Shown here: positions 34,291 through 46,162 of the stretch, piece by piece
Position numbering within the stretch: position 1 is the first letter of the stretch
Layout of the letters: every line of letters starts with the position of its first letter
Source: SAR86 cluster bacterium
GTDB taxonomy: Bacteria > Pseudomonadota > Gammaproteobacteria > Magnimaribacterales > Magnimaribacteraceae
Direction: 5' to 3'
Assembly: GCA_023703575.1 (NCBI GenBank)
Contig: CP097969.1
Span: forward strand, 496,001-560,000
Length of the DNA: 64,000 nt
The notes under the pieces: model-generated
What the model was told of the DNA's origin: nothing
What the model saw: only the letters and a program-made list of their open reading frames with translations
Databases searched by the model: none
Program-made: the position numbers and the translations under genes

Positions 34291-36089
34291 TCCAAAGAGA
34301 AAGCAAGTATTGCATTTCCAGCCATCTGCCCGTGTTGACTGTAACCACTGTTTACAAATACCCAGTCATCAACAATTACTGGTCCAGCTGAATCTATGGA
34401 ACCTCCAACTGCAGGCATTCCATTTACAGTAATAAAGTCTCTAAGGGTATCGAACTCCCATAATTTAGAACCATCTTCGCTTGCATGTGCTGAAAATCTA
34501 CCATCCAATGCTCCTGCAAAAATTACATTATTTGTCATTGAAATAGCAGCTGAGAAACCAGTACTGCATTTGCCTTCTCCATGCAAAGCTTTTCGAGATT
34601 CGCAAATGTCATCTAGCCGATATTCCCATAAGATATCTCCACCTTCAAAATCTAGAGCATACAGTCCTGGTTTTGCATCATTATCATAGTCTCTGTTGAC
34701 TTTTCTATCCGATACGGGAACATATAAATTTTTATTATCAGTTGTCATACCAAAGTGAACTCCTCCGAGTGTACCTCCATTTCCAACTTTACTTTTCCAA
34801 GAGATCTCTCCTGTATTTATATCAAGCCTAAAGACCCAGCCTGATTTTTGGCCGGCAAGAAGAATTTTTTCTCCTTCCTGATTTTTGGACTGGATTACCG
34901 AAGCACCAAAATCAAAGTCAGGACCCTTTTCTTCTGGACAGACCAATCTTTTTATACCTGGTATCTCACAACCCATATTATAAGCATCACCTTTAAGTGT
35001 TTGAGTTGCCCATATTTTTTCCCCTGATTCTAGGTTCATTGAAATAATAGCATCGCTATAATTTGAAGCAGGACTTTGTAAACTTTGACCAGTTCCAAAG
35101 AAAATTCTTTTATCTTCTCTATCAATACCAGGGGCATTCCACACAGCTGATCCTGCTGGAGCAAACTTTTCCATTCTTGTGATTAATGTTTTTCCAAGAC
35201 TTTTAGATTTCTCTTCAATCCTATGCGTCCATATTATTTCACCAGAAACAGTATCAACTGCTGCTATCCCCCCGCTTGTTTTACAGCACTCATGTCTGGG
35301 GTCTATGGCAAGTACTGTTTCAAAAGTAGATATTGGAACTATAAGATATTTTCCCGATTGTACTGGAGAAGCTGAGGGAATATTTGATTCATAATCAACG
35401 GGAATTTTTGATGCCCAAATCAATTCACCGGTTAATAAATTTAACTTATAAACTTCAAAATCAGAATCAACTAAAAAAATTGATTCACCATCTATTTTAT
35501 TTAAGACTGGTGCATTTCTAAGTCTAGCCTTGGATGAGAATTTCCAGTAAGTACAACCGTTTTCTCTATTTAGTGCATGTAGAGAATCTGAATCTGATAA
35601 TAAAATTACTTCTCCTATAACGATAGGTTGAGCTCTAACATCTTGTGAGCTAATACCGAAAGACCATTGTAGTTTCAAATTCTTAACATTATCAGCGTTG
35701 ATATCAGAATGTGGCTGATTTCTTGTGTTGAAATTATCATAACCCCAACTTGGCCAACTTGAGCTTTGTTTAAGGTCTTTTTTCTCTATGACATGAGGAC
35801 ATTTGTAATTAGACGAGACTGTCGTAGTCCCTAAGACTTCATTTTGTGCAAGATATTCTGAGATAGTCTCTATTTCTTGTATTGATAGGTTGGAAGCTTG
35901 CTGCTTCATTTTTCCCTTTTGAAGAACATACATTAGTTCTGACTGAGTTAAATACGTCATTGAAGAGAGCGAAATTAAATTCAGTCCCTCATCTTCATGA
36001 CATGAAGCACAATTTTCTTTAACCAACTTGCTTGCATCGGTAAAGGCTAATTGAGATACAAAGAAAAGTAATAAAAGGATTCTTTTCAT
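34287..36089 (-). CDS. Cytochrome c-quinoprotein dehydrogenase (PQQ beta-propeller)
   Basis: A 600-aa exported protein: signal peptide, N-terminal cytochrome c domain with Cys27-Ala-Ser-Cys30-His31, then a PQQ-type beta-propeller with repeated W-motif blades (for example GGIAAVDTVSGEIIWTHRI and GLYALDFEGGDILWEYRL). Architecture with the cytochrome before the propeller matches polyvinyl-alcohol dehydrogenase-type enzymes. It would oxidise an alcohol in the periplasm and pass electrons to cytochrome c. The gene meets the plus-strand DUF6644/cytochrome cluster tail to tail. Substrate unknown. Confidence 0.85.
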   Translation of the reverse strand: MKRILLLLFFVSQLAFTDASKLVKENCASCHEDEGLNLISLSSMTYLTQSELMYVLQKGKMKQQASNLSIQEIETISEYLAQNEVLGTTTVSSNYKCPHVIEKKDLKQSSSWPSWGYDNFNTRNQPHSDINADNVKNLKLQWSFGISSQDVRAQPIVIGEVILLSDSDSLHALNRENGCTYWKFSSKARLRNAPVLNKIDGESIFLVDSDFEVYKLNLLTGELIWASKIPVDYESNIPSASPVQSGKYLIVPISTFETVLAIDPRHECCKTSGGIAAVDTVSGEIIWTHRIEEKSKSLGKTLITRMEKFAPAGSAVWNAPGIDREDKRIFFGTGQSLQSPASNYSDAIISMNLESGEKIWATQTLKGDAYNMGCEIPGIKRLVCPEEKGPDFDFGASVIQSKNQEGEKILLAGQKSGWVFRLDINTGEISWKSKVGNGGTLGGVHFGMTTDNKNLYVPVSDRKVNRDYDNDAKPGLYALDFEGGDILWEYRLDDICESRKALHGEGKCSTGFSAAISMTNNVIFAGALDGRFSAHASEDGSKLWEFDTLRDFITVNGMPAVGGSIDSAGPVIVDDWVFVNSGYSQHGQMAGNAILAFSLD

Positions 36090-36094
36090 CTAAA

Positions 36095-36355
36095 TTAATT
36101 TAAATTTTTTTGGCTGGATTCCTTTTCTATCCAAGACAGCGCAAGATTAATTTTTTCTTCTAATTCAGTTACGTGTTGCGCAAGCATGCCTGATGCGTCT
36201 GTTACATTATTCATAGTTTCGGCATGTTGAATTAAGGTGATGATATTGTTACTAATTTCAAGCTGCTGAGCTTGTAAATCTTGAATTGTACTTTCAAGAA
36301 TTACTATTTTTTTTTCTAAATCTAATATCTTAGCTTTTAATAATTCTTCACTCAT
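36095..36355 (-). CDS. Small coiled-coil protein of unknown function
   Basis: An 86-aa, almost entirely helical product with heptad-like Leu/Ile spacing (LKAKILDLEKKIVILES) and no cysteine. Its start overlaps the end of the next upstream gene by 8 bp, indicating one operon with the NTF2-like and RidA genes. No family recognised. Confidence 0.55.
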   Translation of the reverse strand: MSEELLKAKILDLEKKIVILESTIQDLQAQQLEISNNIITLIQHAETMNNVTDASGMLAQHVTELEEKINLALSWIEKESSQKNLN

Positions 36356-36773
36356 TTCCTAGTGTAGCTAGATTTGGACTAAAGCCTCCTTTAAGTTTCC
36401 AGTTTCCATCTTTGTTTACAAGTAAATAAGTCACATCACCTGTTAAGATAATTTGATTATCCTTGTCAAATCTTGAAAAATTAACTTGGACCATAGAGGT
36501 ATCATCATCATTGTATAGAACCTTAGAAGTATTAATCTTTGAGTAAGACCAACCATCCTTTTTTAAACCATTAAAATTTATTGCATCGCTATATTTTTCT
36601 TCAAGGACAGTATTCTTCCCCATGATGTAAATGAAAGGGGAATCTGAATTTTTGTTAATGGCTAAAATATCTTCGTTATTAAAATCCCGAAAAAACTGTT
36701 TTATGGCTTCTTCAGGCCCAGCACTTAAATGGCCTATAAGAAATATGTTGATTATAAAAAATATTTTTTTCAT
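36348..36773 (-). CDS. Exported NTF2-like small protein
   Basis: A 141-aa product with a signal peptide (hydrophobic to residue 18) and an alpha+beta domain resembling SnoaL/NTF2-like proteins: EEAIKQFFRDFNNEDI near the start and a WKLKGGF strand near the end. The catalytic or ligand-binding residues cannot be defined. It overlaps the RidA gene by ATGA. Confidence 0.55.
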   Translation of the reverse strand: MKKIFFIINIFLIGHLSAGPEEAIKQFFRDFNNEDILAINKNSDSPFIYIMGKNTVLEEKYSDAINFNGLKKDGWSYSKINTSKVLYNDDDTSMVQVNFSRFDKDNQIILTGDVTYLLVNKDGNWKLKGGFSPNLATLGNE

Positions 36774-37159
36774 TTTTCAAAATGTGCGATGCATTTAATT
36801 TCGATTTTAAGGTTTGGCTGAACAAGAGCATTCACACCAATCAATGTTTGAGAAACTTCGGGCTTGCAACCATAAATTTTTTCTCTTTCTGCAAAGATCT
36901 CTGAAACGTTTTCCATACACTCATTCATATCCGTTACAAACCATGTTTCATCAATTATATTTTCAAGAGAACCGCCAAAATGATCTAAAATTTTTGAGAT
37001 ATTCTCATAACATATGATCATCTGACTTTTAAAATCGGCCGGAGTATTACCATTCTCATCGACGGCAATTTGTCCTGCCATGGTTAACACATTATCCACC
37101 TGTACCCCTTGAGAAAAAAAGTCTCCGTAAGGTCCTTCTCTTAATAACTTCTTCTTCAT
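36770..37159 (-). CDS. RidA family protein
   Basis: A 129-aa protein of the YjgF/RidA fold with GPYGDFFSQGVQVDNVLTMAGQIA at the N-terminus, then MIICYENISKILDHFGG and the VGVNAL/IEIKCIAHF C-terminal strands. RidA deaminates reactive enamine/imine intermediates. The catalytic Arg that classical RidA places near the C-terminus is not obvious (the segment reads TLIGVNALVQPNLKIEI), so it may belong to a non-deaminating subfamily. First gene of a three-gene overlapping run. Confidence 0.8.
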   Translation of the reverse strand: MKKKLLREGPYGDFFSQGVQVDNVLTMAGQIAVDENGNTPADFKSQMIICYENISKILDHFGGSLENIIDETWFVTDMNECMENVSEIFAEREKIYGCKPEVSQTLIGVNALVQPNLKIEIKCIAHFEK

Positions 37160-37243
37160 TTAGGCTCCTAAAACTATTACAAGGATTATTCCAAAAAATA
37201 ATGCCAAGAGAATAGATTTGAAGTCTTTTTTAATCTGTTTCAT
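37160..37243 (-). CDS. Tiny single-helix membrane peptide (27 aa)
   Basis: The reverse frame encodes a 27-residue peptide, a basic start (MKQIKKDFKS) and one hydrophobic helix ending LGA. Its stop lies immediately before the RidA start codon. It is too short for routine gene calling, but its composition is membrane-like and the packing matches its neighbours. Low confidence. Confidence 0.35.
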   Translation of the reverse strand: MKQIKKDFKSILLALFFGIILVIVLGA

Positions 37244-37258
37244 AAATTTCTCTTATTT

Positions 37259-37432
37259 TCATCTAGCTCTGATACTTTTTTTCATACCACAACTGGGGCA
37301 TTTGTATTTATATTTTAACGAAACAGCAGCATCGATATAACTATTGATTCTTTCAAGCTTAACATCGCATCGAGTACAGTAATAAATATTCTTGTAGTGT
37401 TTTTTAAACCAAGACAAAATTTTCTTAAACAT
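37259..37432 (-). CDS. Small zinc-ribbon protein (57 aa)
   Basis: A 57-aa product with two Cys pairs, YYCTRC and YKCPSCG, spaced about 25 residues apart, which is a zinc-ribbon layout. The N-terminus is basic and aromatic (MFKKILSWFKKHYKNIYY), and the C-terminus ends KKSIRAR. It probably binds nucleic acid or a partner protein; function unknown. The gene was missed by length filters but is clearly protein-like. Confidence 0.6.
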   Translation of the reverse strand: MFKKILSWFKKHYKNIYYCTRCDVKLERINSYIDAAVSLKYKYKCPSCGMKKSIRAR

Positions 37433-37472
37433 AAAGAATTAGATCAAGTAGGGCAACGTGTAAATGTGGCTT

Positions 37473-37703
37473 CTAGTTAAGATCATTATCCTTTTTTCTA
37501 TATTCCCAGAATGTATCTGCGTGCAAAAAAGTATCGTTAGCGTAATCTCTAATTTCTTTAAAGTTCATATCAACCGCATCAAATACTTGTTTCCACTGAC
37601 CCTGTTCTCTTTCAAAAGCTTTGCTCAAAGCTTCTTTTATTTCCTCAACAGATTTTTCTAGGTTTTCAATTCTACTTTCAATTTTTTTAATATCACTATC
37701 CAT
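37473..37703 (-). CDS. Small coiled-coil protein (76 aa)
   Basis: A 76-aa charged, helical product with heptads in the first half (IKKIESRIENLEKSVEEIKE) and a Trp/Phe-rich C-terminal half. It has no membrane segment. It sits among several small minus-strand genes with no recognised function. Confidence 0.55.
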   Translation of the reverse strand: MDSDIKKIESRIENLEKSVEEIKEALSKAFEREQGQWKQVFDAVDMNFKEIRDYANDTFLHADTFWEYRKKDNDLN

Positions 37704-37742
37704 TAATTATCTTCCTTTGTTATTTGAGATTTTTACCACGTT

Positions 37743-38072
37743 TTAACGTGCTTCACAGTTATTGAGGTTAGGTCTTCGGCATGGCTGAGACTTATCCATT
37801 AAAATTTCTTTATTAATATCATCAACATTTTTAATAGTACTTGCGAAATTGGAAAATTCATCACAATTAAAATTTCTAATTCTTTTTTCGTTTGCAATTC
37901 CTTTCATAATTATGAGTTGTTCTTCAGCGTGCAATTTTGAAAAGCCAATATCTGTATTTGGGAAACAAAGAAAGAAATTAGAATAGGCTGCTTGACTTCT
38001 TCCAATCTCTGAAATATTAAAAGCGCAGCCAAAGATCAGTAAAGCAAGTAAGAGGGTGGTTAAAGTTTTCAT
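37743..38072 (-). CDS. Small lipoprotein (109 aa)
   Basis: The N-terminus MKTLTTLLLALLIFGC is a lipoprotein signal with lipobox IFGC at residue 16. The mature part has four further Cys, probably disulfide-bonded in the periplasm, and no recognised domain. The coding start (the complement of AGGGTGGTT...TTCAT at 38052-38072) resembles the leader cassettes at 38292-38330 and 42064-42102, suggesting a shared modular signal peptide. Confidence 0.6.
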   Translation of the reverse strand: MKTLTTLLLALLIFGCAFNISEIGRSQAAYSNFFLCFPNTDIGFSKLHAEEQLIIMKGIANEKRIRNFNCDEFSNFASTIKNVDDINKEILMDKSQPCRRPNLNNCEAR

Positions 38073-38097
38073 TTAAATAATCTATTTCCAAATCTAT

Positions 38098-38262
38098 CTA
38101 GCCAGCAAATTGTGATATAAAAAACATAATGACAAAGAAAATTATAAACAAGAAAAAACTCTTACGAACTGGAATTCCTGCTTCATAATCAAAACTATTC
38201 CTGAACAAATAATAGATGCCGAAAGCAACTGAAAGGGCTATGAGGAATATAAGCATACCCAT
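38098..38262 (-). CDS. Small two-helix membrane protein (54 aa)
   Basis: A 54-aa product starting at 38262, with two hydrophobic helices separated by a charged loop (FRNSFDYEAGIPVRK). Its ATG overlaps the TAA of the 22-aa leader-like frame upstream as TAATG, so the two could be translationally coupled. Function unknown. Confidence 0.5.
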   Translation of the reverse strand: MGMLIFLIALSVAFGIYYLFRNSFDYEAGIPVRKSFFLFIIFFVIMFFISQFAG

Positions 38263-38330
38263 TAATCAATAATTGATGCACAAACACCAAGGACTAGCAA
38301 GGTTAGCAGGAGGGTGGTTAGGTGTTTCAT
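38262..38330 (-). CDS. 22-aa orphan signal-peptide-like frame
   Basis: The frame encodes MKHLTTLLLTLLVLG followed by only seven more residues, i.e. a signal peptide without a mature domain. Its first 39 bases match those of the element gene at 41704-42102 at 37 of 39 positions. It may be a decayed lipoprotein gene, a coupled leader for the downstream membrane protein, or a remnant of recombination. It may not be expressed as a functional peptide. Confidence 0.3.
   Translation of the reverse strand: MKHLTTLLLTLLVLGVCASIID
38292..38330 (-). repeat. Signal-peptide leader repeat, copy outside the element
   Basis: A 39-bp segment encoding MKHLTTLLLTLLV. It is nearly identical (37/39) to 42064-42102, where it leads a full-length exported protein inside the integrated element. 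A diverged third copy leads the lipoprotein ending at 38072. Confidence 0.7.
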
Positions 38331-38375
38331 AATTAAACGTTATATTCTATGTATGTATAGGTCAATAGAACTCTA

Positions 38376-38404
38376 GTGACTTACGCAACTTTGAATACTA
38401 TAAT
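38376..38404 (+). promoter_or_regulatory. Likely original promoter of tRNA-Val, now driving a dead copy
   Basis: A -10 box TATAAT (38399-38404) with a -35-like GTGACT (38376-38381) at 17-bp spacing and a GC-rich discriminator TCGCGC lies 12 bp before the truncated tRNA-Val copy. GC-rich discriminators are typical of stringently controlled stable-RNA promoters. The intact tRNA at 44990 has no comparable signal upstream. Confidence 0.55.
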
Positions 38405-38413
38405 TCGCGCTCT

Positions 38414-38456
38414 TTTGGGCGATTAACTCAATTGGTAGAGTGCCACCTTTACACGG
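38414..38456 (+). repeat. Left attachment repeat (attL core)
   Basis: Forty-three bases identical to 44987-45029, consisting of TTT plus the first 40 nt of tRNA-Val through the anticodon stem. The recombination crossover must lie within this segment, presumably in the anticodon region, which tyrosine recombinases often use. Confidence 0.85.
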
Positions 38457-38492
38457 AATAAGTCTACCATTCAAACCTGTATAGATACACCA
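38417..38492 (+). pseudogene. Degenerate tRNA-Val copy
   Basis: The first 40 nt equal the functional tRNA-Val. The following 36 nt have exactly the expected length, keep TTCAA of the T loop in register and end in CACCA, but neither the acceptor nor the T stem can pair. It is therefore a non-functional copy whose 3' half, contributed by the element, has decayed. Confidence 0.75.
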
Positions 38493-38551
38493 TTTAAGCC
38501 CTATAAATCAACATTATATGTATGCATATAGTAGATATTTATAGATAAAAG

Positions 38552-38570
38552 GCAGTGCATTAGCAGTACG
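38552..38570 (+). repeat. Left terminal repeat, candidate integrase arm site
   Basis: The 19-mer GCAGTGCATTAGCAGTACG matches 44907-44925 at 18 of 19 positions. Each contains two half-sites beginning GCAGT spaced about one helical turn apart. Position inside both ends, close to the att repeats, fits arm-type binding sites of a tyrosine recombinase. Confidence 0.55.
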
Positions 38571-38577
38571 GTATTGT

Positions 38578-38594
38578 ATAGGGAGTAAATAGTT
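38578..38594 (+). promoter_or_regulatory. 17-nt shared motif, copy 1 (upstream of integrase)
   Basis: ATAGGGAGTAAATAGTT ends 14 nt before the integrase ATG. An identical copy ends 15 nt before the 461-aa gene, and a one-base variant lies near the right end. The constant distance to two start codons suggests a shared operator or promoter-proximal control element. Confidence 0.6.
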
Positions 38595-38608
38595 GCTATC
38601 ATTTACAC

Positions 38609-40030
38609 ATGGCAAAATGGACTCAAGCAACAGTAGAAAGTTGGTTAAAGAATAAACCCACAGGTTCTGGATTGGGTGGAAAGAGAGACAGACATACATA
38701 TCAACAAGACAATCTAAGGGCTGTTGTATATAAGACTGGTAAGCTCACTTGGTACTTTTACAGGAAAGGTATTAAGAATGAAATATTAGGTACTTATCCT
38801 GCTATAAGTCTTAAACAGGCTAGAGCTTTAGTCATTAAGAATATGTCTGACGAGTTCACAGGTGAAAATCCTGACGGAAGACTGACCTTCAAAGAATACT
38901 GCAATTCTCCTAAGTTTCTAAGAGAAAAGAACAAGACTAGGAAAAGTAACCAAGCGAGTATGAAAGCTCTCAATAATCTCATTGTTCCTGTAATAGGTCA
39001 TATTCGAATGGATAAACTTACTTTAGAAGATATTAATAAGTTTAAGTTTGGTTATGAAGCTAAGAACTCTTCTGTTAATAGACTCCTTAATGAGATAAGG
39101 GCAGTACTGTCACATGCTTATAAAAACAAAGCTATTAAGAACAATATTCAAATAGAGAACCTAAAGGTAGATAGTAATCCTGACAAAAGATACTTATTAG
39201 AATCTGAAATAGAGGCTTTAAGAAGAGCTTGCAGAGAACCTTTAGAACACATGACTCCTAAACAATACCTTCAAGCAGGACACTTACCATTGATTATAGA
39301 CATTGCTTTATTCTGTGGATGTAGATTGGGAGAGATACTTAAAATCACATATGCAGATATTGTTGCTGGTGATGAATCAGATGATAGCTTCTGGAAGATA
39401 AACTTAAGAGGAGAGATAACTAAATCTGGTAACTCTAGAGATGTGCTTCTTCCTGAGTGGTTAAAAGAAAGATTATCTAAGTGGTGGTTCGACAACTTAA
39501 CTAAAGAAGAACTAGCAGAAGTTATACATGACAGAGCTACAAAGAAACGCCCGAGACTACATCATGATAAAAGACTCTTTCCTTTCCGTTCTATTCAAAC
39601 TGCTTTTGAGAAAGCAAGGGATAGGGCAGAACTAGACAAAGATATTTCGTTCCACAGTCTTCGACACCATTTCTGCTCTAATGCCCTTATCTGTGGAGTA
39701 CCAATACATCTAGTTCAGAAAATGGCAGGACATTCATCAATAACAACAACAGAGAAGTATCTACACATAATCGATTCGGACTCTGCCAAGTACCTAGATA
39801 AGTATTGGAAGTCTATTTATAGGTACGAAGAACCCAAGAAGATAGACAAGAAACAAGAACCAATAGTTTCTATTGAAGGAACTGCTGTACCAACATTAGT
39901 ACAACCACAAACAAGCATTACCTTTGATACTAATAAGATTAATTGGAACTTAGACGATGCTTTAGCTAGAGCAATGGCTTATGAACCTTTATCCATTACA
40001 ACAAAGAAAACTAAAGGGAAGAAGGTGTGA
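38609..40030 (+). CDS. int: Tyrosine recombinase/integrase of the tRNA-Val element
   Basis: A 473-aa P4-like integrase. The N-terminal region (residues about 25-75, with LTWYFYRKG and TYPAISLKQAR) resembles the arm-binding domain, a core-binding helical domain spans about 90-180, and the catalytic domain contains Arg239 (CGCRLGE), His349-x-x-Arg352 (FHSLRHH), His375 (AGHSS) and the nucleophile Tyr384 (TEKYLH). All five catalytic positions are present, so the enzyme should be active. The gene lies just inside attL and overlaps the next gene by 4 nt. The 17-nt motif lies just upstream. Confidence 0.95.
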   Translation: MAKWTQATVESWLKNKPTGSGLGGKRDRHTYQQDNLRAVVYKTGKLTWYFYRKGIKNEILGTYPAISLKQARALVIKNMSDEFTGENPDGRLTFKEYCNSPKFLREKNKTRKSNQASMKALNNLIVPVIGHIRMDKLTLEDINKFKFGYEAKNSSVNRLLNEIRAVLSHAYKNKAIKNNIQIENLKVDSNPDKRYLLESEIEALRRACREPLEHMTPKQYLQAGHLPLIIDIALFCGCRLGEILKITYADIVAGDESDDSFWKINLRGEITKSGNSRDVLLPEWLKERLSKWWFDNLTKEELAEVIHDRATKKRPRLHHDKRLFPFRSIQTAFEKARDRAELDKDISFHSLRHHFCSNALICGVPIHLVQKMAGHSSITTTEKYLHIIDSDSAKYLDKYWKSIYRYEEPKKIDKKQEPIVSIEGTAVPTLVQPQTSITFDTNKINWNLDDALARAMAYEPLSITTKKTKGKKV

Positions 40031-40305
40031 TTATTTCTTTCATAATAACTATTATTCAATTTGGTTCTATAGGTAATTTTTTTCTGTTTCTATATCGAGG
40101 CTGTATGAGGATTTATGATTACTTTTCTTACTTCAAACATAAACAACATATGCTTCCCAAAACATATAAAGCCACACAAAGAGAAAGTCTCCTAGATGCC
40201 TTTAAACATTTCGCAAGCTCTCTCGGTTTCTTAGCTGTCTTTTGGCTACTTTATGAGACTGGTTTAGTTGAATACTCTTTCTTTTATCTCTGGGATGGTT
40301 TTTAG
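40027..40305 (+). CDS. Membrane protein in integrase operon
   Basis: A 92-aa product from GTG 40027 (GTGA overlap with the integrase). It has an N-terminal hydrophobic helix, a basic central region (KHKQHMLPKTYKATQRES) and a second hydrophobic helix near the C-terminus. Function unknown; it may be anchored with the loop in the cytoplasm. Confidence 0.55.
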   Translation: MIISFIITIIQFGSIGNFFLFLYRGCMRIYDYFSYFKHKQHMLPKTYKATQRESLLDAFKHFASSLGFLAVFWLLYETGLVEYSFFYLWDGF

Positions 40306-40475
40306 TGAGAGTCAGAGAAAAACAATGCAATGGATGTTCAGAGAACTTTGATGTTTTGTTTCGTTGTAAATACAACAACTCAGATTGGATGTTCCTTTGT
40401 CAGGAATGTTTAACTCCTGTTAAGGAATACTCAGATTATATTTATGGAGGAACATGGAAAGCTCGAAAAGGATAA
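40305..40475 (+). CDS. Small cysteine-rich zinc-binding protein (56 aa)
   Basis: Starting at GTG 40305, sharing a base with the preceding TAG, the product has Cys pairs QCNGC and LCQEC with a further Cys at residue 21 (FRCKYN), a zinc-ribbon-like layout. It is immediately coupled to the next micro-gene. No named family; possibly a transcription or excision accessory factor, which is speculation. Confidence 0.6.
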   Translation: MRVREKQCNGCSENFDVLFRCKYNNSDWMFLCQECLTPVKEYSDYIYGGTWKARKG

Positions 40476-40591
40476 TGTTAGTTCTTGAACTAGACGACTA
40501 TAACCATGCTGAAGTTGTCTTTACCAAGAATCTTATCCAAACCAAGGAAGACTTTGAAGAATGTGAGGTAGTAGAGAAGTTTTCTATTTAG
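40475..40591 (+). CDS. Micro-protein (38 aa) in integrase operon
   Basis: A 38-aa acidic product (MLVLELDDYNHAEVVF...) whose ATG overlaps the previous stop as TAATG. Its four-gene coupling with the integrase makes translation plausible despite the small size. Unknown function. Confidence 0.4.
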   Translation: MLVLELDDYNHAEVVFTKNLIQTKEDFEECEVVEKFSI

Positions 40592-40634
40592 GAATAAATA
40601 TTTCTGGTACTCTTCATTTAAGAAGAGGTTGATT

Positions 40635-40889
40635 ATGGATGAAGAAAAATTTGACGAATTGAGACAAGAATTTGAATTACTAAAAGAATATCATGGAAAA
40701 CTTCTTGAAGCATTCCAACTATTGAGAAAAAAAACAGACCTACATACCTTGATGTTAGAAAATATAAATGAAAATCAAGAGGAGAAATGGAAAAAATATG
40801 ATGATTTAATTCAACAATTTATATCCAGTCATGACCAATCTTTAGAAGACTTGCAGAAAGCAGTGGAAGAATTTTTAGAAGATGAATGA
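40635..40889 (+). CDS. Acidic coiled-coil protein (84 aa)
   Basis: A highly charged helical product from the ATG at 40635, which has AGAAGAGG 6 nt upstream; a TTG at 40629 is an inferior alternative. Heptads span most of the length. It ends four bases before the convergent minus-strand gene. Unknown function; could be a small regulator or scaffold. Confidence 0.55.
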   Translation: MDEEKFDELRQEFELLKEYHGKLLEAFQLLRKKTDLHTLMLENINENQEEKWKKYDDLIQQFISSHDQSLEDLQKAVEEFLEDE

Positions 40890-40893
40890 CTGC

Positions 40894-41229
40894 CTACTTT
40901 ATCTTTCTTCTAGGAAACCTATCGTAAAGAATACAGGTTAAGTCTATCAACATCTCTCCTTTATCTTGACCAATTGTCTGAACTCTTGACTGAGTTACAA
41001 CGTTCCTGTCATATCTACACCAATTAGCCACCTCACCTGTAAGATAAAATTCTTTTATACTCCTTACTTTAAGGACATTGTTGCGTTCACATTTATCGAT
41101 AATAAATTTTGAATCTTTAGGCATCATGTAGCCTGTATCCACTTCAAGATAAACTTCACAAACCCTGTCCATATCAGCCCACAGACTAGTTGAAAGCAGT
41201 ATCCCGGTTATTAGTATTAGTTTTTTCAT
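40894..41229 (-). CDS. Small exported protein (element cargo)
   Basis: The ATG at 41229 gives a signal peptide (MKKLILITGILLSTSLWAD) and a 111-aa product with several Cys in the mature part, probably disulfide-bonded. A longer in-frame start at 41262 would overlap the upstream gene and spoil the signal. Last of seven small minus-strand cargo genes. No family recognised. Confidence 0.6.
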   Translation of the reverse strand: MKKLILITGILLSTSLWADMDRVCEVYLEVDTGYMMPKDSKFIIDKCERNNVLKVRSIKEFYLTGEVANWCRYDRNVVTQSRVQTIGQDKGEMLIDLTCILYDRFPRRKIK

Positions 41230-41242
41230 AAAAGCTAATATT

Positions 41243-41713
41243 TTACTTTTTTTGCCTAGCAATTTTTTTGCGAAAAGAATTAAATGTATTTCCCTGTAGA
41301 TTTTTTATTGGGTCAAACAGGTATAACCTTTTTACGATTTCGCTAGCACTCAGAGCAGAACCGGGAGAAACCAAGGGATGGTCATAGTTTTCGAATATAA
41401 AACATTCTTCAAAATTAACTGATTTATTGTATGCACAAAATTTAGTTATAAATCCACCATCCGTCAGTGAAACTAACATATTTCGATTATTTTTATCCAT
41501 TGAATTTTGCCAATCAAAAAATTCCCAGTCTCCAACCTCTTCTAATGGAAAATCCTTATCACAAACTTCATACGCCAGCCTTGCACAAGCTTTATTTTCA
41601 CCACATTCTTTGACTTTCTCAAATGAACATTCAGCAAAATTATCAGGACCAAACCAACTTGGTAATGTCCATGATGAAAAGGCTATTAACAAAATTACTA
41701 AACTTAGTCGCAT
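41243..41713 (-). CDS. Exported cysteine-containing protein (element cargo)
   Basis: A 156-aa product with a signal peptide (MRLSLVILLIAFSSWTLP) and six Cys in the mature region (for example ECSFEKVKECGENKACARL), suggesting disulfide-stabilised periplasmic folding. It overlaps the upstream cargo gene by 10 bp. Unknown function. Confidence 0.6.
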   Translation of the reverse strand: MRLSLVILLIAFSSWTLPSWFGPDNFAECSFEKVKECGENKACARLAYEVCDKDFPLEEVGDWEFFDWQNSMDKNNRNMLVSLTDGGFITKFCAYNKSVNFEECFIFENYDHPLVSPGSALSASEIVKRLYLFDPIKNLQGNTFNSFRKKIARQKK

Positions 41714-42102
41714 AAAGTTTTGTCGATTATTATATTGAATAGAAATCTCCTAGAAGTATCTGTGAAGTAATGTTCCAAAGCAATATTATTTTCTCTATAA
41801 ATTTTGAGTTCTGGATTTGAACAATAATTATTTTTCTCTCTTTCAAAACTTATGTTTCTAAGCTTTTCAATTCCTTTTTTAGTAATGTCAGATTTAACCT
41901 TTAGCTCATATTCATATACAAGACTTTTATTCAATCCAGCATATACCTTTGTTACCGTCATAACAGCATCTAACCTTATCGGGAGCAATTTACTGTATTC
42001 ATTAGCTACTTCTTGCAGGACTAAATCTAGGGTTTTAGCACCATCAGCCCACAAGCTTCCAGAGACTAGCAAAGTTAGTAGGAGGGTGGTTAGGTGTTTC
42101 AT
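41704..42102 (-). CDS. Exported protein with repeated leader (element cargo)
   Basis: A 132-aa exported protein whose first 13 codons are nearly identical to the orphan leader at 38292-38330 outside the element. The mature part is helical and charged, with two Cys. It overlaps the upstream cargo gene by ATGA. Unknown function. Confidence 0.6.
   Translation of the reverse strand: MKHLTTLLLTLLVSGSLWADGAKTLDLVLQEVANEYSKLLPIRLDAVMTVTKVYAGLNKSLVYEYELKVKSDITKKGIEKLRNISFEREKNNYCSNPELKIYRENNIALEHYFTDTSRRFLFNIIIDKTLCD
42064..42102 (-). repeat. Signal-peptide leader repeat, copy inside the element
   Basis: Thirty-nine bases matching 38292-38330 at 37 positions and encoding the same leader (MKHLTTLLLTLLV). 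See the finding on leader cassettes. Confidence 0.7.
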
Positions 42103-42455
42103 TGTCGTATTTGTTCTACATACACTTCATTCAGGTTTCTTAAATTCCCTTCATGCGTACTTAGATACCTATTTCTTGGATAAAGCAGTTCTCTGCAACT
42201 TGCCCTAAGTTCATTATATTTTTTTCTATAACGAATAAGGTAAACTCCCAAGTCTTCATTTTCAATTTCAAATCCCTTGTTCTTTTCTAGGCTAGTTGCA
42301 AGTTCCTTTTCTAGTGCCTCATTTAAAGCTTTTAACCTTTTAACTTCTTTTTTTAATAGAAAAGGAGAAATCAGATACATTATGGGGAAAAACAAAACCC
42401 CAACAGCACCTCCCATAATTACAATAAACCAAAAAATATTAGATAGTAATTCCAT
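42099..42455 (-). CDS. Membrane-anchored coiled-coil protein (element cargo)
   Basis: A 118-aa product with an N-terminal membrane helix (residues about 6-33) followed by a Lys/Glu-rich coiled coil (KKEVKRLKALNEALEKEL) and a positively charged C-terminus. Domain order resembles small envelope scaffold proteins or spanin-like anchors, but no family matches. Confidence 0.6.
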   Translation of the reverse strand: MELLSNIFWFIVIMGGAVGVLFFPIMYLISPFLLKKEVKRLKALNEALEKELATSLEKNKGFEIENEDLGVYLIRYRKKYNELRASCRELLYPRNRYLSTHEGNLRNLNEVYVEQIRQ

Positions 42456-42466
42456 AATCTTCTCCC

Positions 42467-42625
42467 TTATCCAAACAATCCGGTACTCATCAGAAACCTA
42501 AACACTATCCCTAATATTATGAAAGGTAGTGCAGCTATAAACTTTAAAGCCATGACCATATATTCCCATGTAAGTAACCAAATTATTACTCCTACAGCTA
42601 TGAACATCCAGTTTAACCAATTCAT
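42467..42625 (-). CDS. Small two-helix membrane protein (52 aa, element cargo)
   Basis: A 52-aa product, mostly hydrophobic, with Trp-rich first helix (MNWLNWMFIAVGVIIWLL). It starts directly before the stop of the next upstream micro-gene. Size and packing are consistent with a real cargo gene; no family. Confidence 0.5.
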   Translation of the reverse strand: MNWLNWMFIAVGVIIWLLTWEYMVMALKFIAALPFIILGIVFRFLMSTGLFG

Positions 42626-42763
42626 TTAAAGCTCCTCTAAATCCTGTATCTGGAAATACTTTCTCTTTAATTGATTCTTTTCCCGGTGTTGGTGTCCTTT
42701 AATCCCATTGGAAACTTTAACTTCTTTATCTAAAACTAAATCTCTTGGGTTAGGTAGTTTCAT
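42626..42763 (-). CDS. Basic micro-protein (45 aa, element cargo)
   Basis: A 45-aa product rich in Lys, Arg and His (GIKGHQHREKNQLKRKY) ending EEL, with the adjacent membrane gene starting immediately after its stop. It could be a nucleic-acid-binding peptide. Low confidence because of size. Confidence 0.4.
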   Translation of the reverse strand: MKLPNPRDLVLDKEVKVSNGIKGHQHREKNQLKRKYFQIQDLEEL

Positions 42764-42770
42764 ATAAGGT

Positions 42771-42971
42771 CTAAATTTCTTGGATAATCCCCCAAATTAT
42801 AAATCCAAAAAACCAACTCAATCCAAACATCCAAAAAGCATTTATGAGTACGTCTTTATATTCAACTTTATCATTAGGCTTTTCTGTACCTACTAAGTGA
42901 CTAATCAAAGCTATTCCGTGACAGAGTATCCAACTAATAACTATTAATCCTAAGAATAAAAATGAATCCAT
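42771..42971 (-). CDS. Small membrane protein, first cargo gene (66 aa)
   Basis: A 66-aa product with an N-terminal helix (FLFLGLIVISWILCHGIALISHL), a hydrophilic loop (TEKPNDKVEYKD) and a second helix with many Trp/Phe. It is the promoter-proximal gene of the minus-strand cargo run. Unknown function. Confidence 0.5.
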   Translation of the reverse strand: MDSFLFLGLIVISWILCHGIALISHLVGTEKPNDKVEYKDVLINAFWMFGLSWFFGFIIWGIIQEI

Positions 42972-43242
42972 AAACTGGTTAACAACATTAACTCTTTTTT
43001 ATAGTTTTTCAATGGAAAAAATAAACATACTGTAAATAACTTTATTTCTTACTTAACAATACTTTAAAGAGTTTTTCGGGCTACCTAAACAATGTCTAAA
43101 TATCTATTAATAAATATATAAATATATCTTTAAAAGGTATAAATAAAGGGGAGAATAAAGGTAATAAATATATATCTATACATATACATGTATTAAGACT
43201 TTTAGGGGAGATAGGGAGTAAATAGTTTAGAATAGCTAATCA
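42972..43242. other. Very AT-rich intergenic region, candidate origin and divergent promoter
   Basis: Between the first cargo gene (minus) and the 461-aa gene (plus) is a 271-bp AT-rich segment without coding potential. It holds two near-copies of AAAGGTATAAATAAA (43133-43147) and AAAGGTAATAAATAT (43157-43171), tracts of alternating AT, and the 17-nt motif at its right edge. Such composition next to a putative replication gene fits an origin of replication plus divergent promoters, but direct evidence is lacking. Confidence 0.4.
43211..43227 (+). promoter_or_regulatory. 17-nt shared motif, copy 2 (upstream of the 461-aa gene)
   Basis: ATAGGGAGTAAATAGTT, identical to the copy before the integrase, ends 15 nt before the ATG at 43243. 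A one-base variant occurs near the right end of the element. Confidence 0.6.
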
Positions 43243-44628
43243 ATGCCATTTATAGACTATTACCTTACATCTGATATTGAAATTACTAAGGATAAACTTA
43301 GTGAAACAGAGCTAACCAGAAAGCTCCTAAAGAACGTTGATTTAGGTTCTGATAATAGAACATGGAATAGAAAACAACTCAAAGCTCTTAAGCTACTTCT
43401 CTGCAATGCTATTACTTACATGAATGAAGATAATGGAGTGTTTCTTTATTCAAGAAAGAAGAGACAGATACCAACTCAATTCAATCCTCTAGACATAGCT
43501 TACAGTTCTTTATTCTTTGTTATTGATAAGTTAGTTGAAGGAAAGGTAATAACAGGAATAAAAGCACCACCTAGAACAAAGGGAACTAACCCTAAGAAAC
43601 TATCAGAGTTTAAAGTAACTCAAGACCTTGTGGACTTGGCAATCTCTTTGGGTATTAACAAAACAACGGTAAGAACGATAGCTAACTTCCATGTAAGACT
43701 TAGAGACACAGTAACCAATGAGAACTTAGAGTTCAAACACAACGAATATACAAGACATGTCGAGATGCTTATGTCTGAGTACTGTCACTATCTAAACCAG
43801 CACAACATTCTCTTTAGTACTGAAGATTATGATTTGGAAACTGAAGAAGGTTTAAAAGATTGGGGAGCTAGAGGACAGAAGATACATCTTTACAGGAACT
43901 ATAAAAACTACTCTGATAAAGAAAACCATAAGGAGTCTTTGAGTAAATTTTACTTTGTTGATGTGCAAATAGACTTTCTTCTTGGTGGTCGTAGTGGTGG
44001 TTATTGGCAAGGTAAGAAGCCAGATGATAGACAACATATTCTGATAGACGGTAAAGAAGTAGGCACAGCAGACTTTCCTTGCATGCATTTAAATCTTTGC
44101 TACAGACAAGAAACAAATGATTGGTATCAAAAAGAAACCTATAAAGAACTCAAAGCAGAAGGAAGAGAAAGAGAAGATGCCTACATAGTAAGTGAAAAGA
44201 TACATAGAGATATTGCTAAGAAAATGGTTCAGCTTATGTTCAACATCAAAGGTAGGAGAGCTGTAAGTAAAACCTTTAACACATGGCTAAAGGAAGAAGC
44301 TGATATTAAATTGGTAATAGCACACAAGAAGTCTCGCTATACCAATATTGAAATCATGGAGCTTATTGAGAGAAAGCATCACACTATTATTGATTACTTC
44401 TATAAGGGAGTTGTAGCAGGGCAGATAATACAATGGGAAGAAGCTAACCTTCTGCATGAGATAGCCAATAACTTTCAAAAGGGTTATGACTTTCCTTGCT
44501 TAACAATTTACGATGAACTAATCGTACCTAAAGAAGAACTAGCTATGGTTAAAGACTTTATGTTCTCTAGTGGGCATAACGAGATGTACTCCAAAATGTC
44601 TCTTATGAATCAAATAAAGAGCATGTAG
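43243..44628 (+). CDS. Putative replication protein with polymerase-palm-like motifs
   Basis: A 461-aa protein of no named family. Three conserved-looking blocks follow in order: residues about 249-288 with GRSGGYWQ (Arg250, Trp255), then EVGTADFPCMHLNLCY, where Asp277 sits as in motif A of family A polymerases; residues 321-338 (HRDIAKKMVQLMFNIKG), where the R-D-x-x-K spacing resembles motif B; and residues 417-429 (DFPCLTIYDELIVP), where Asp424 resembles motif C (HDE). I recall a widespread family with DFSGLHI and HDSFIV blocks that this resembles. The N-terminal 240 residues are helical and unassigned. It is the largest gene of the element after the integrase and the best candidate for its replicase or primase; function is inferred. 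Confidence 0.6.
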   Translation: MPFIDYYLTSDIEITKDKLSETELTRKLLKNVDLGSDNRTWNRKQLKALKLLLCNAITYMNEDNGVFLYSRKKRQIPTQFNPLDIAYSSLFFVIDKLVEGKVITGIKAPPRTKGTNPKKLSEFKVTQDLVDLAISLGINKTTVRTIANFHVRLRDTVTNENLEFKHNEYTRHVEMLMSEYCHYLNQHNILFSTEDYDLETEEGLKDWGARGQKIHLYRNYKNYSDKENHKESLSKFYFVDVQIDFLLGGRSGGYWQGKKPDDRQHILIDGKEVGTADFPCMHLNLCYRQETNDWYQKETYKELKAEGREREDAYIVSEKIHRDIAKKMVQLMFNIKGRRAVSKTFNTWLKEEADIKLVIAHKKSRYTNIEIMELIERKHHTIIDYFYKGVVAGQIIQWEEANLLHEIANNFQKGYDFPCLTIYDELIVPKEELAMVKDFMFSSGHNEMYSKMSLMNQIKSM

Positions 44629-44694
44629 AGAAGGTATCTAGAAGCTCCATAAATGGTTTCTAAGCAATGAAATATATACAGTTTTTAATCGTAT

Positions 44695-44711
44695 ATAGGG
44701 AGTAGATAGTT
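44695..44711 (+). promoter_or_regulatory. 17-nt shared motif, copy 3 (one mismatch)
   Basis: ATAGGGAGTAGATAGTT differs from the other two copies at one base (A to G) and is followed by TTAG as in copy 2. No gene starts after it, so its role may be DNA recognition rather than translation control. Confidence 0.55.
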
Positions 44712-44906
44712 TAGCCTTAAACTGTCTCTATTTAAAGTACTGGTTTACAACCTATGTAGGCTAAAATTGTAGGAGCATTAGATATACTACCCGGTATACC
44801 CTACGTACATCCTGCCCACTGCCAAAAGAGTTGATGCAAAATAAAAGGGGAAGTTTATAATATCGGCATTAGAGAGGTACAAAAGGGGAACAAGTAAGAA
44901 CCTTTA

Positions 44907-44925
44907 GCAGTGCATAAGCAGTACG
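44907..44925 (+). repeat. Right terminal repeat, candidate integrase arm site
   Basis: GCAGTGCATAAGCAGTACG matches the left copy (38552-38570) at 18 of 19 positions in the same orientation, 62 bp before the right att core. The left copy lies about 95 bp after the left core. Confidence 0.55.
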
Positions 44926-44986
44926 AAGATTTTATATCTATCTCTTAGGAAACTAAGAATGCTTATATAACAGTACTTTCAAAGCA

Positions 44987-45029
44987 TTTGGGCGATTAAC
45001 TCAATTGGTAGAGTGCCACCTTTACACGG
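44987..45029 (+). repeat. Right attachment repeat (attR core)
   Basis: Forty-three bases identical to 38414-38456. Here they form the 5' half of the intact tRNA-Val, so the element supplies this half and chromosomal DNA supplies the 3' half. Confidence 0.85.
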
Positions 45030-45065
45030 TGGAAGTTACAGGTTCAAGTCCTGTATCGCCCACCA
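44990..45065 (+). tRNA. tRNA-Val (anticodon UAC)
   Basis: A complete 76-nt cloverleaf: acceptor GGGCGAT pairs with ATCGCCC, anticodon stem CCACC/GGTGG encloses the loop TTTACAC with anticodon TAC, and the T arm ACAGG/CCTGT encloses TTCAAGT. Discriminator A and an encoded CCA end the gene. It serves as the attachment site of the element on its left, and its promoter region was replaced by element DNA. Confidence 0.96.
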
Positions 45066-45178
45066 TCCAAAATTCCTCAAGTTTCCATAATTTTGATAGA
45101 AAGGTATAGTTAGATCATGGAAATGATTTCCTTTATTTTTGAATAGCTTTTAAGTCTGATTTCAAAACGCTTTAAATT

Positions 45179-46090
45179 ATGACAGAGATGATTAAAGAAG
45201 AGCATATCGAGTTATGGAGAAAAGAAGGAGCAGTTGTGATTCCTGAATTCTTCAAAAGACAAGAAATAGATGCTGTAGTAGAAGACTTTCAAATTATATT
45301 TCCCGAACGACAAACGGCAGCAAGACCAATTGATAACAAAGAAAAAGGTGATGTGGGAAAAACAACTCTGGAACAATTTAAAAATTTTGAAAATATACCC
45401 TTCGAATGTTCTAGTTCATTAAATCTGATTTCTGTTCATCCGGATTTAATAGAGTTTGCAAAAAAAGCTTTAAAGACAGATGAAGTAAGGCTATATCAAG
45501 CTCAGGCCTGGGCAAAATTCACTGGTGAAGCAGATTTTGATCAAGCATTTCATTGCGATTTTGGAAACCATACACTGACGGTACCTTCTCGCGATGAATG
45601 TTTGAACTCTATTACTTTTATTATTTTTTTCAGTGATGTCACTGAAGCACATGGGCCTACGCATTATGTTAATCGAACAGACAGTGATAATTGCGGTGGT
45701 GTGAAACGTTTTCTCAAAAAACGTGAAGATTATGAATATCAAAAAGAGTTAATGAAGTTTGAGCGAAGTGCAGCTGGACCGGCAGGAACTCTTCTGGCTT
45801 ATGGCATTGATGTATTACATCGAGGCACAAACCTTACCGAACCAAATGGATACAGATATGCAATGACTTCTTGCTTTAAAAAAGCAGGTAATGATGCAAT
45901 TGGCTATACGGCTTGGCCATGGCATTTTAATAAACCATGGCATAAGGTTTTTGAACATGCTACACCTGAACAACTTAACTGTTTCGGAGTTCCCTTGCCT
46001 GGAGACCCCTTTTGGACGGAAGAGACAATATCACTGGCTAAATTGAGATATCCTAAATGGGAAATGTCTGAATATATAATGAAACAGTGA
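45179..46090 (+). CDS. Phytanoyl-CoA dioxygenase (PhyH) family protein
   Basis: A 303-aa Fe(II)/2-oxoglutarate-dependent oxygenase. The iron ligands can be seen as His125-x-Asp127 (FHCDFGNHT) and His214 (VLHRGTNLT), with the 2-oxoglutarate-binding Arg expected nearby (NGYRYAMT). The fold is completed by the HGPTHYV segment. PhyH relatives hydroxylate diverse small molecules, so phytanoyl-CoA is not implied. It is the first chromosomal gene to the right of the tRNA-Val site. Confidence 0.87.
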   Translation: MTEMIKEEHIELWRKEGAVVIPEFFKRQEIDAVVEDFQIIFPERQTAARPIDNKEKGDVGKTTLEQFKNFENIPFECSSSLNLISVHPDLIEFAKKALKTDEVRLYQAQAWAKFTGEADFDQAFHCDFGNHTLTVPSRDECLNSITFIIFFSDVTEAHGPTHYVNRTDSDNCGGVKRFLKKREDYEYQKELMKFERSAAGPAGTLLAYGIDVLHRGTNLTEPNGYRYAMTSCFKKAGNDAIGYTAWPWHFNKPWHKVFEHATPEQLNCFGVPLPGDPFWTEETISLAKLRYPKWEMSEYIMKQ

Positions 46091-46145
46091 ATCTTAAACA
46101 GCTTAGCGCCGACCATCATCTAACTCGAAAACACGATACTTAACT

Positions 46146-46162
46146 GGATTTTTTGAAAATCC
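46146..46162 (+). terminator. Stem-loop after the PhyH gene, possible terminator
   Basis: GGATTTT TTG AAAATCC forms a seven-base-pair stem (eight with the flanking T-A) with a three-base loop, 55 bases after the PhyH stop. It lacks a clear U tract and is AT-rich, so terminator function is doubtful. Confidence 0.3.

Follow-up and report, generated by a model that had tools for sequence, protein, structure and literature searches.

The window, the whole stretch of 64,000 nucleotides analyzed here, carries at 43243-44628 a gene that the first-pass annotation had read as a 461-aa protein with palm-like motifs, possibly the replicase of an integrative element. The ORF has exactly these coordinates, lies on the plus strand and starts with ATG. 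The integrative element claimed around it is also borne out, and an att repeat and an empty site now give its limits. Its features are as follows.

38414..44986, integrative element, 6,573 bp from the left att core to the right att core, defined by a 43-bp repeat and an empty site
38414..38456, plus strand, left att core, a copy of the 5′ part of tRNA-Val
38554..38570, plus strand, left copy of the 17-bp repeat AGTGCATWAGCAGTACG, near the left end, possibly a recombinase arm site
38577..38594, plus strand, copy 1 of the 18-bp repeat TATAGGGAGTAAATAGTT, about 31 nt before the integrase start
38609..40030, plus strand, tyrosine integrase, 473 aa, 195 bp inside the left end
40894..42455, minus strand, four small ORFs (122, 156, 132 and 118 aa) with signal-peptide- or membrane-like N-termini, by eye
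42456..43242, AT-rich spacer 5′ of the polymerase gene, a candidate origin or regulatory region
43210..43227, plus strand, copy 2 of the 18-bp repeat, first base different, about 32 nt before the polymerase start
43243..44628, plus strand, TV-Pol-like polymerase gene, 461 aa, ATG start, matching PHROG phrog_4756 at E 6.9e-31 (function unassigned there)
44694..44711, plus strand, copy 3 of the 18-bp repeat, one base different, 3′ of the polymerase gene
44909..44925, plus strand, right copy of the 17-bp repeat AGTGCATWAGCAGTACG, near the right end, possibly a recombinase arm site
44987..45029, plus strand, right att core, overlapping the 5′ part of the intact tRNA-Val
44990..45065, plus strand, tRNA-Val (anticodon tac), the integration target, predicted by ARAGORN

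The 5′ part of tRNA-Val is present as a direct repeat (38414-38463 and 44987-45036, 94% identity, with a 43-bp identical core) that brackets the integrase and polymerase genes. Genome G007, from the same genus, has the empty site: the flanks 36000-38456 and 44987-46149 are contiguous there at 96-97% identity and the core is present once. G010 has the same junction, with 38393-38456 running into 44989; further left in that genome about 2.3 kb of other sequence replaces window positions 38030-38392. Small ORFs, four of them on the minus strand, separate the integrase and polymerase genes.

The 17-bp repeat has two matches in the 64 kb, a number that 0 of 100 shuffles reach. All three copies of the 18-bp repeat lie inside the element, and a search of the 64 kb allowing up to three mismatches found no further one; 2 of 100 shuffles also give three matches at three mismatches. 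These repeats resemble the TATAGGGAG part of T7-type promoters. The AT-rich spacer described earlier is real, with 23-25% GC in 250-bp steps over 42875-43249, the lowest within 38000-45499. A GC-poor upstream region is no general trait of the family: it falls in the lowest tenth in 20 of 84 loci. Pieces of the spacer, parts of 42974-43180, recur upstream of the homolog in G013 (142 bp at 84% and 39 bp at 97% identity, at 88-262 of locus L031). Since this upstream sequence is conserved although the window and G013 proteins share 24% identity, the spacer is a candidate cis-acting site. The spacer search matched 13 of 101 genomes; besides the window's own genome and G013, the other 11 gave short matches only (E 4.8e-5 to 9.9e-4).

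A signal-peptide-like coding start is repeated at 38029-38072 and 38287-38330, outside the left att, and at 42059-42102, inside the element. These repeats may have been left by earlier insertions at this tRNA. Extra 5′-tRNA-Val fragments or left-end-like sequences are also found on L171, L172, L173, L174 and L175, contigs of G021, G015, G018 and G013. Such remnants, on contigs that have no match to the polymerase family, make the tRNA-Val site look like an insertion hotspot.

The motifs reported for the protein are all present with the numbering given: GRSGGYWQ (Arg250), TADFPCMHLNLCY (Asp277), HRDIAKKMVQLMFN (Arg322 and Lys326) and CLTIYDELIVP (Asp424). They lie in the following layout.

Residues about 1-235, N-terminal domain; Arg250, hairpin; Asp277 and Asp424, palm; Arg322 and Lys326, fingers RxxxK

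In an alignment of 12 diverse bacterial and phage members the invariant columns include R250, R263, D277, R322, K326 and D424. When 92 members were aligned, the window protein included, R250, R263, D277, Y314, R322, K326 and D424 were each found in 92/92, N334 in 88 and D312 in 84. The four residues flagged at the outset and Arg250 of GRSGGYWQ are among these seven positions, which places the motifs beyond chance. Position 423 is His in 90 members and Tyr in two, the window protein being one of the pair, and position 425 is Ser in 82 but Glu in the window protein. At the gate, position 282 is His in 66/92 and in the window protein; position 330 is Asn in 51 and Gln in four, and Gln in the window protein. 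GRFY, DxY and HDS motifs are present in most family members. The 92-member alignment left out L076, L080 and L086, where the gene is split into two frames (under 380 aa), though all three are kept in the 95 loci described below. Four further sequences were dropped: G038, among the 7 of 101 related-genome matches, which has an internal stop and whose picked ORF reads by eye as a dehydrogenase; G159, with a picked ORF of only 69 aa; and G025 and G218, copies of L044 and L100. G062, in which the gene is split over contig ends, is outside both sets.

We predicted structures with AlphaFold2 for the window protein, using 84 homologs (pLDDT 80, pTM 0.78), and for the relative at locus L112 (pLDDT 91.6, pTM 0.88). 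Ten-residue pLDDT means over 261-440 of the window model are 88-97, except for 59-77 at 291-310. In VIA-align runs over Foldseek's best 1000 chains, superfamily A enzymes make up 50 of the 50 rows listed for each model. They include yeast, human and T7 RNA polymerases and DNA polymerases I, T7, theta and nu, so that both folds named for comparison in the first-pass annotation, DNA polymerase A and T7 RNA polymerase, are among the matches of the predicted structures. The window model aligns with yeast mitochondrial RNA polymerase at Z 12.3 (369 aligned, rmsd 6.7), Bacillus DNA Pol I at Z 11.3 (244 aligned, rmsd 4.3) and T7 RNA polymerase at Z 11.1 (252 aligned, rmsd 3.9); the L112 model reaches Z 14.3 (257 aligned, rmsd 3.8). 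Mitochondrial RNA polymerase POLRMT (7pzr) is the top Foldseek match for both, at E 2.2e-3 for the window protein and 3.1e-4 for L112. Foldseek is weak for the window protein, this being its best E, and the list also has Fur-type regulators and family B polymerases; that of L112 also has reverse transcriptases, a helicase-primase and a few unrelated enzymes at low probability. The replication protein of the Zamilon virophage, which we take to be a TV-Pol, is at structure rank 36 (E 1.1e-3).

In known palms the first Asp is at a strand end and the second where a two-strand hairpin turns. The models place the first Asp at or beside the end of a long strand (271-277 in the window protein; 282-289, with Asp 288, in L112) and the second at a hairpin turn (strands 420-422/425-429 and 415-417/420-424, respectively). 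The predicted secondary structure therefore agrees in both models with the adjacency expected of Asp277 and Asp424. Helices 168-185 and 226-236 are predicted before the hairpin, and strand 248-252 precedes R250. A length of 461 aa would leave no room for the usual exonuclease domain.

Profile comparison with hhalign gave the palm a score of 43.1 against nine single-subunit RNA polymerases (reversed control 14.2) and 25.8 against 25 PolA (reversed control 14.3), with 20 column-shuffled controls at or below 16.9 in each case. The scores thus exceed the shuffled controls, while HH-suite's own probabilities are 57% for the RNA polymerases and 3% for PolA. Its sensitivity is low, since the known relatives PolA and RNA polymerase scored just 16.5 by the same method. 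Against the RNA polymerases motif A falls out of register, leaving motifs B and C to carry the match; alignments of smaller profiles to PolA and to T7/SP6 RNA polymerase covered motif C only. Conservation, the shuffled controls and the two models together support the family A-like palm proposed at first, with the refinement that by sequence profile it is nearer single-subunit RNA polymerases than DNA polymerase I. With the phage and mitochondrial single-subunit RNA polymerases the protein shares the predicted palm and fingers fold and the best profile score, and GRFY, DxY and HDS are found in most members. It differs from them in having about half their length, no recognizable promoter-binding domain, no gate Gly, and Asn for Tyr eight residues after the motif B Lys. 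It differs from DNA polymerase I in that the equivalents of Glu710, Phe762 and Tyr766 are His282, Gln330 and Asn334; we assume the register that puts Asn334 at the Tyr766 position, and part of the Pol I and T7 numbering. Given these gate residues and the motifs of most members, the branch mixes DNA and RNA polymerase traits.

For the N-terminal half, where nothing had been recognized before, Foldseek adds matches of the window model to winged-helix DNA-binding proteins, namely Fur-type regulators, a GntR-type protein and the C-terminal domain of CodY (E about 0.04-0.27, probability up to 0.97). Several helix-turn-helix (HTH) models match one of the 12 members each, and none is listed in the Pfam scan of 85 members at E 0.01. 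With matches of this strength and no HTH model in the larger scan, a DNA-binding role of this domain is a lead and not a result.

The family libraries Pfam, NCBIfam and PHROGs assign no function to the window protein. Pfam gave a sub-threshold DUF2117 match only, listing neither DNA_pol_A (PF00476; limit E 10) nor RNA_pol (PF00940), NCBIfam gave no match, and a sequence search of the PDB gave nothing specific. The PolA locus of the same genome is its sole DNA_pol_A match at E ≤ 0.001. Among 85 members, all 85 match phrog_4756. Pfam RNA_pol is found in one of them at E 0.0061, which is chance level, as an unrelated HMG-CoA synthase model scores equally (1/85, E 0.0062). Two PHROG RNA-polymerase families match two of the 85 each (best E 3.2e-4 and 9.8e-4), a DNA-polymerase family matches one, and two nameless families match two and one. 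Searching the PDB with a profile of the 12 members gave a single entry, a DNA polymerase I (E 0.37). The same 12 matched eight NCBIfam models, one member each, several of which are HTH regulators. They also matched six PADLOC models, again one member each (CasR twice, Csa3 twice, CARF3 and HerA), none of them a polymerase; the window protein had no PADLOC match.

Scans of viral and genome contigs for close relatives, using the window protein alone or with G056, confirmed nothing, and a plasmid search with the window protein had no match. L112 found four plasmid records and, at E up to 0.1, 287 phage records, with Vibrio phages accounting for 143 and Rheinheimera phages for 115. The 60 of these that were listed, ICP1 included, are large genomes of 91-149 kb in which the gene is outside any small element; 59 annotate it as hypothetical and one is without annotation. 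Among related genomes the distribution is sparse, with phrog_4756 matches in 6/101.

To see what accompanies the gene, we assembled 95 loci, not thinned by similarity. Two peptide patterns gave 270 matches in genome contigs, the best 80 of which were kept as 79 loci; to these were added six IMG/VR loci, three of SAR86 type (G056, G017 and G013), G201 and G211 (others of the class), four phages and the window. As the loci were chosen by the polymerase, its constancy among them is by construction. The informative point is that only the integrase keeps it company across loci. A tyrosine integrase is encoded within 7 kb in 71/95 loci, the window included, and in 45 of the 51 with both flanks complete; four of the six misses are phage genomes. 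Measured with a profile built from integrases within 7 kb, integrase density is 16.6 per 100 kb in the first kb and declines with distance, reaching 0 at 7-10 kb. The most frequent non-integrase neighbor cluster is a resolvase (18/95). The other element genes vary and include methylases, restriction enzymes, resolvases, a Cas9-like protein, HTH and trypsin-like proteins. They were scanned with Pfam in 140 of 235 ORFs, with 25 of 89 families listed, so a replication gene could be missed among them.

ARAGORN predicts a tRNA in 50/95 loci. The polymerase gene is bracketed in 31 by an exact tRNA-derived repeat of at least 16 bp, a count made without a shuffled control, and in four of the loci (L045, L076, L110 and L119) both repeat copies are inside predicted tRNA genes. 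The bracketed spans are 5,905 to 15,043 bp long (median 9,664), and in 30/31 the integrase is within 400 bp of an end or, in L116, overlaps it; L091 has none inside.

Some loci have further peculiarities. A Desulfovibrio element (L112, 11602-14775) combines the same two main genes with a 1,058-aa Cas9-like protein (HNH_4, RuvC_III, Cas9_a). L090, L097 and L039 have two or more family ORFs each, possibly from neighboring elements. Both ends of the contig L029 (G062:C7, 7,952 bp) fall within a homologous polymerase gene. A circle, or tandem copies with an assembly gap, could explain this; the contig was rejected as evidence for a circle, since the ends do not join in frame. A search of G062 with L029 found L029 itself only, exact terminal overlaps were found in 0 of 26 whole contigs, and no excised or replicating form was seen in the contigs examined.

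These features fit a known kind of protein. The TV-Pol family was named in 2008 by Iyer, Abhiman and Aravind (PMC2579912) and is defined by a hairpin Arg, two palm Asp, a fingers Asp plus RxxxK and a minimal core, in proteins of 400-600 aa like the one described here. A subset has an extra N-terminal domain, and its genes neighbor those of lambda-type integrases, resolvases or transposases, in regions where restriction-modification operons abound; primase plus polymerase activity was predicted for the family (PMC2579912). In the window family the hairpin Arg is R250 (92/92, after strand 248-252), the palm Asp are D277 and D424 (92/92, predicted at a strand end and a hairpin turn), and the fingers residues are D312 (84/92), R322 and K326 (92/92). 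The minimal superfamily A core is predicted by the 50 of 50 listed rows of both models, and the context is that of the integrase within 7 kb and the resolvase cluster. The TV-Pol thumb is a pair of antiparallel helices, to which the helices predicted at 168-185 and 226-236 could correspond. The published alignment names Rhodobacterales, Loktanella and marine gammaproteobacteria, among others, and Ma-LMM01 phage holds a TV-Pol (PMC2579912). Comparison with the 111 ORFs of Ma-LMM01 gave no significant match: the best ORF by palm profile (E 0.28) had an hhalign score of 19.7, below the best shuffled control (23.4), and six other Ma-LMM01 ORFs score higher. We assign the window protein to TV-Pol as a new member, with one reservation: the basis is a common set of defining features and a common context, not a significant alignment to a listed member. 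The window element differs from the published picture (PMC2579912) in three respects: a D5-like helicase was not recognized, the insertion is site-specific in a tRNA gene with bounded ends where replicative transposons were proposed, and the N-terminal domain is predicted to be winged-helix-like where an all-helical one was expected.

CCPol of the SCC elements is included in TV-Pol and, by its authors' 2020 account, is the only one studied at the bench; Bebel et al. 2020 (PMC7581432) describe an enzyme that extends primers, makes DNA primers de novo with its partner MP and depends on D169 and D324. Like the window protein, CCPol is a superfamily A enzyme of an integrative element without exonuclease domains, and the spacing of its catalytic Asp, 155, is similar to the 147 seen here. 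CCPol keeps the Pol I gate residues E710 and F762, which in the window protein are replaced by His282 and Gln330, and it acts together with MP and the helicase Cch2 (PMC7581432); in the window element we identified neither a helicase nor an MP-like partner nor a mapped origin. With His282, Gln330 and Asn334 at its gate, the nucleotide choice of CCPol is not transferable to the window protein. The N-terminal domain, we infer, may take the place of MP.

The element also resembles other small elements. Tycheposons are tRNA-associated tyrosine-recombinase elements of marine bacteria that are packaged in vesicles or capsids, and the window element, judged by its genes alone, has the tRNA and integrase of this type. 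We know of no helper phage for it. The PICMI satellites (PMC10803314) are also from marine gammaproteobacteria, are about 6 kb long (PICMI115, 6,110 bp) and carry an integrase, one replication gene and a few small genes. They sit next to fis, and not in tRNA-Val with a TV-Pol; PICMI115 has alpA and a putative primase (PMC10803314), neither of which was recognized by eye among the ORFs of the window element. No description of this SAR86 element was found among the literature listings examined, which cover open-licence PMC. The kind of protein is already known; new here are this member, its element and the unusual sugar-gate residues.

We consider it probable that the window protein is a TV-Pol-type minimal superfamily A polymerase encoded by the replication gene of the 6.6-kb element in this SAR86-type bacterium, acting as a primase-polymerase that begins the copying of the excised circle. 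Genomic context and the TV-Pol literature support this predicted role, which is the element replicase first suggested. As the gene is kept with an integrase across differing elements and has all catalytic residues, replication of an excised circle is what it would most simply serve. We infer excision, template binding, priming and replication as follows. The integrase would excise the element from tRNA-Val as a circle, and the winged-helix-like N-terminal domain would perhaps guide the polymerase to single-stranded DNA or to the AT-rich spacer. There the polymerase would lay primers and then extend them by two-metal chemistry at Asp277 and Asp424. Host enzymes would complete the copy, and the circle could then reintegrate or be moved by a helper.

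The gene could instead encode a miniature single-subunit RNA polymerase that transcribes the element genes from the 18-bp TATAGGGAG-type repeats before the integrase and polymerase genes, with an indirect role in replication. This would agree with a palm profile nearer RNA polymerases than PolA, with PHROG RNA-polymerase families that each match one more of the 85 members than the DNA-polymerase family, with motifs that resemble GRVY, DIY and HDS of T7 RNA polymerase, and with three near-identical repeat copies, two of them equally distant from the integrase and polymerase starts. A promoter motif shared across the family was, however, rejected: among 60 loci with both upstream regions the window alone (score 17) exceeds the control maximum of 13, two exceed the 99th percentile, and the three repeat copies themselves recur in shuffled sequence at the rate given above. 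The gate residue is mostly His and not the Gly of T7, and the single Pfam RNA_pol match does no better than HMG-CoA synthase. The studied relative CCPol prefers dNTPs (PMC7581432). We therefore regard a dedicated transcriptase as unlikely. A combined form, hardly less doubtful, is that integrase-linked TV-Pols are a branch nearer RNA polymerases whose His/Gln/Asn gate may permit both priming and transcription, making the protein a transcriptase-primase with an N-terminal domain that recognizes element sites such as the 18-bp repeats.

That elements of this family often carry restriction-modification genes, that one element carries a Cas9-like protein, and that homologs occur in phages, would suit a polymerase of anti-phage or inter-element conflict carried as cargo and not for replication of the element. 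Its pairing with the integrase across elements that differ in their other genes speaks against this, though the loci were chosen by the polymerase, as do the PADLOC results, and we think cargo of this kind improbable. A decaying or non-catalytic relic, such as a DNA-binding regulator built on a palm fold, would account for the sparse distribution among relatives, the winged-helix-like N-terminus and the genes in two frames at L076, L080 and L086; with the window ORF intact and the seven invariant residues retained in every aligned member, the window copy included, it is very improbable.

The window gene links the TV-Pol-like family to a set of tRNA-targeted integrative elements of proteobacteria, one of which now has precisely mapped ends and an empty counterpart site, in genomes for which Pfam, NCBIfam and PHROGs assign this gene no function. 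The proposed role suggests, in a form open to testing, how integrative elements this small may copy themselves, and the unusual gate residues provide a clean test of the choice between DNA and RNA building blocks in superfamily A enzymes.
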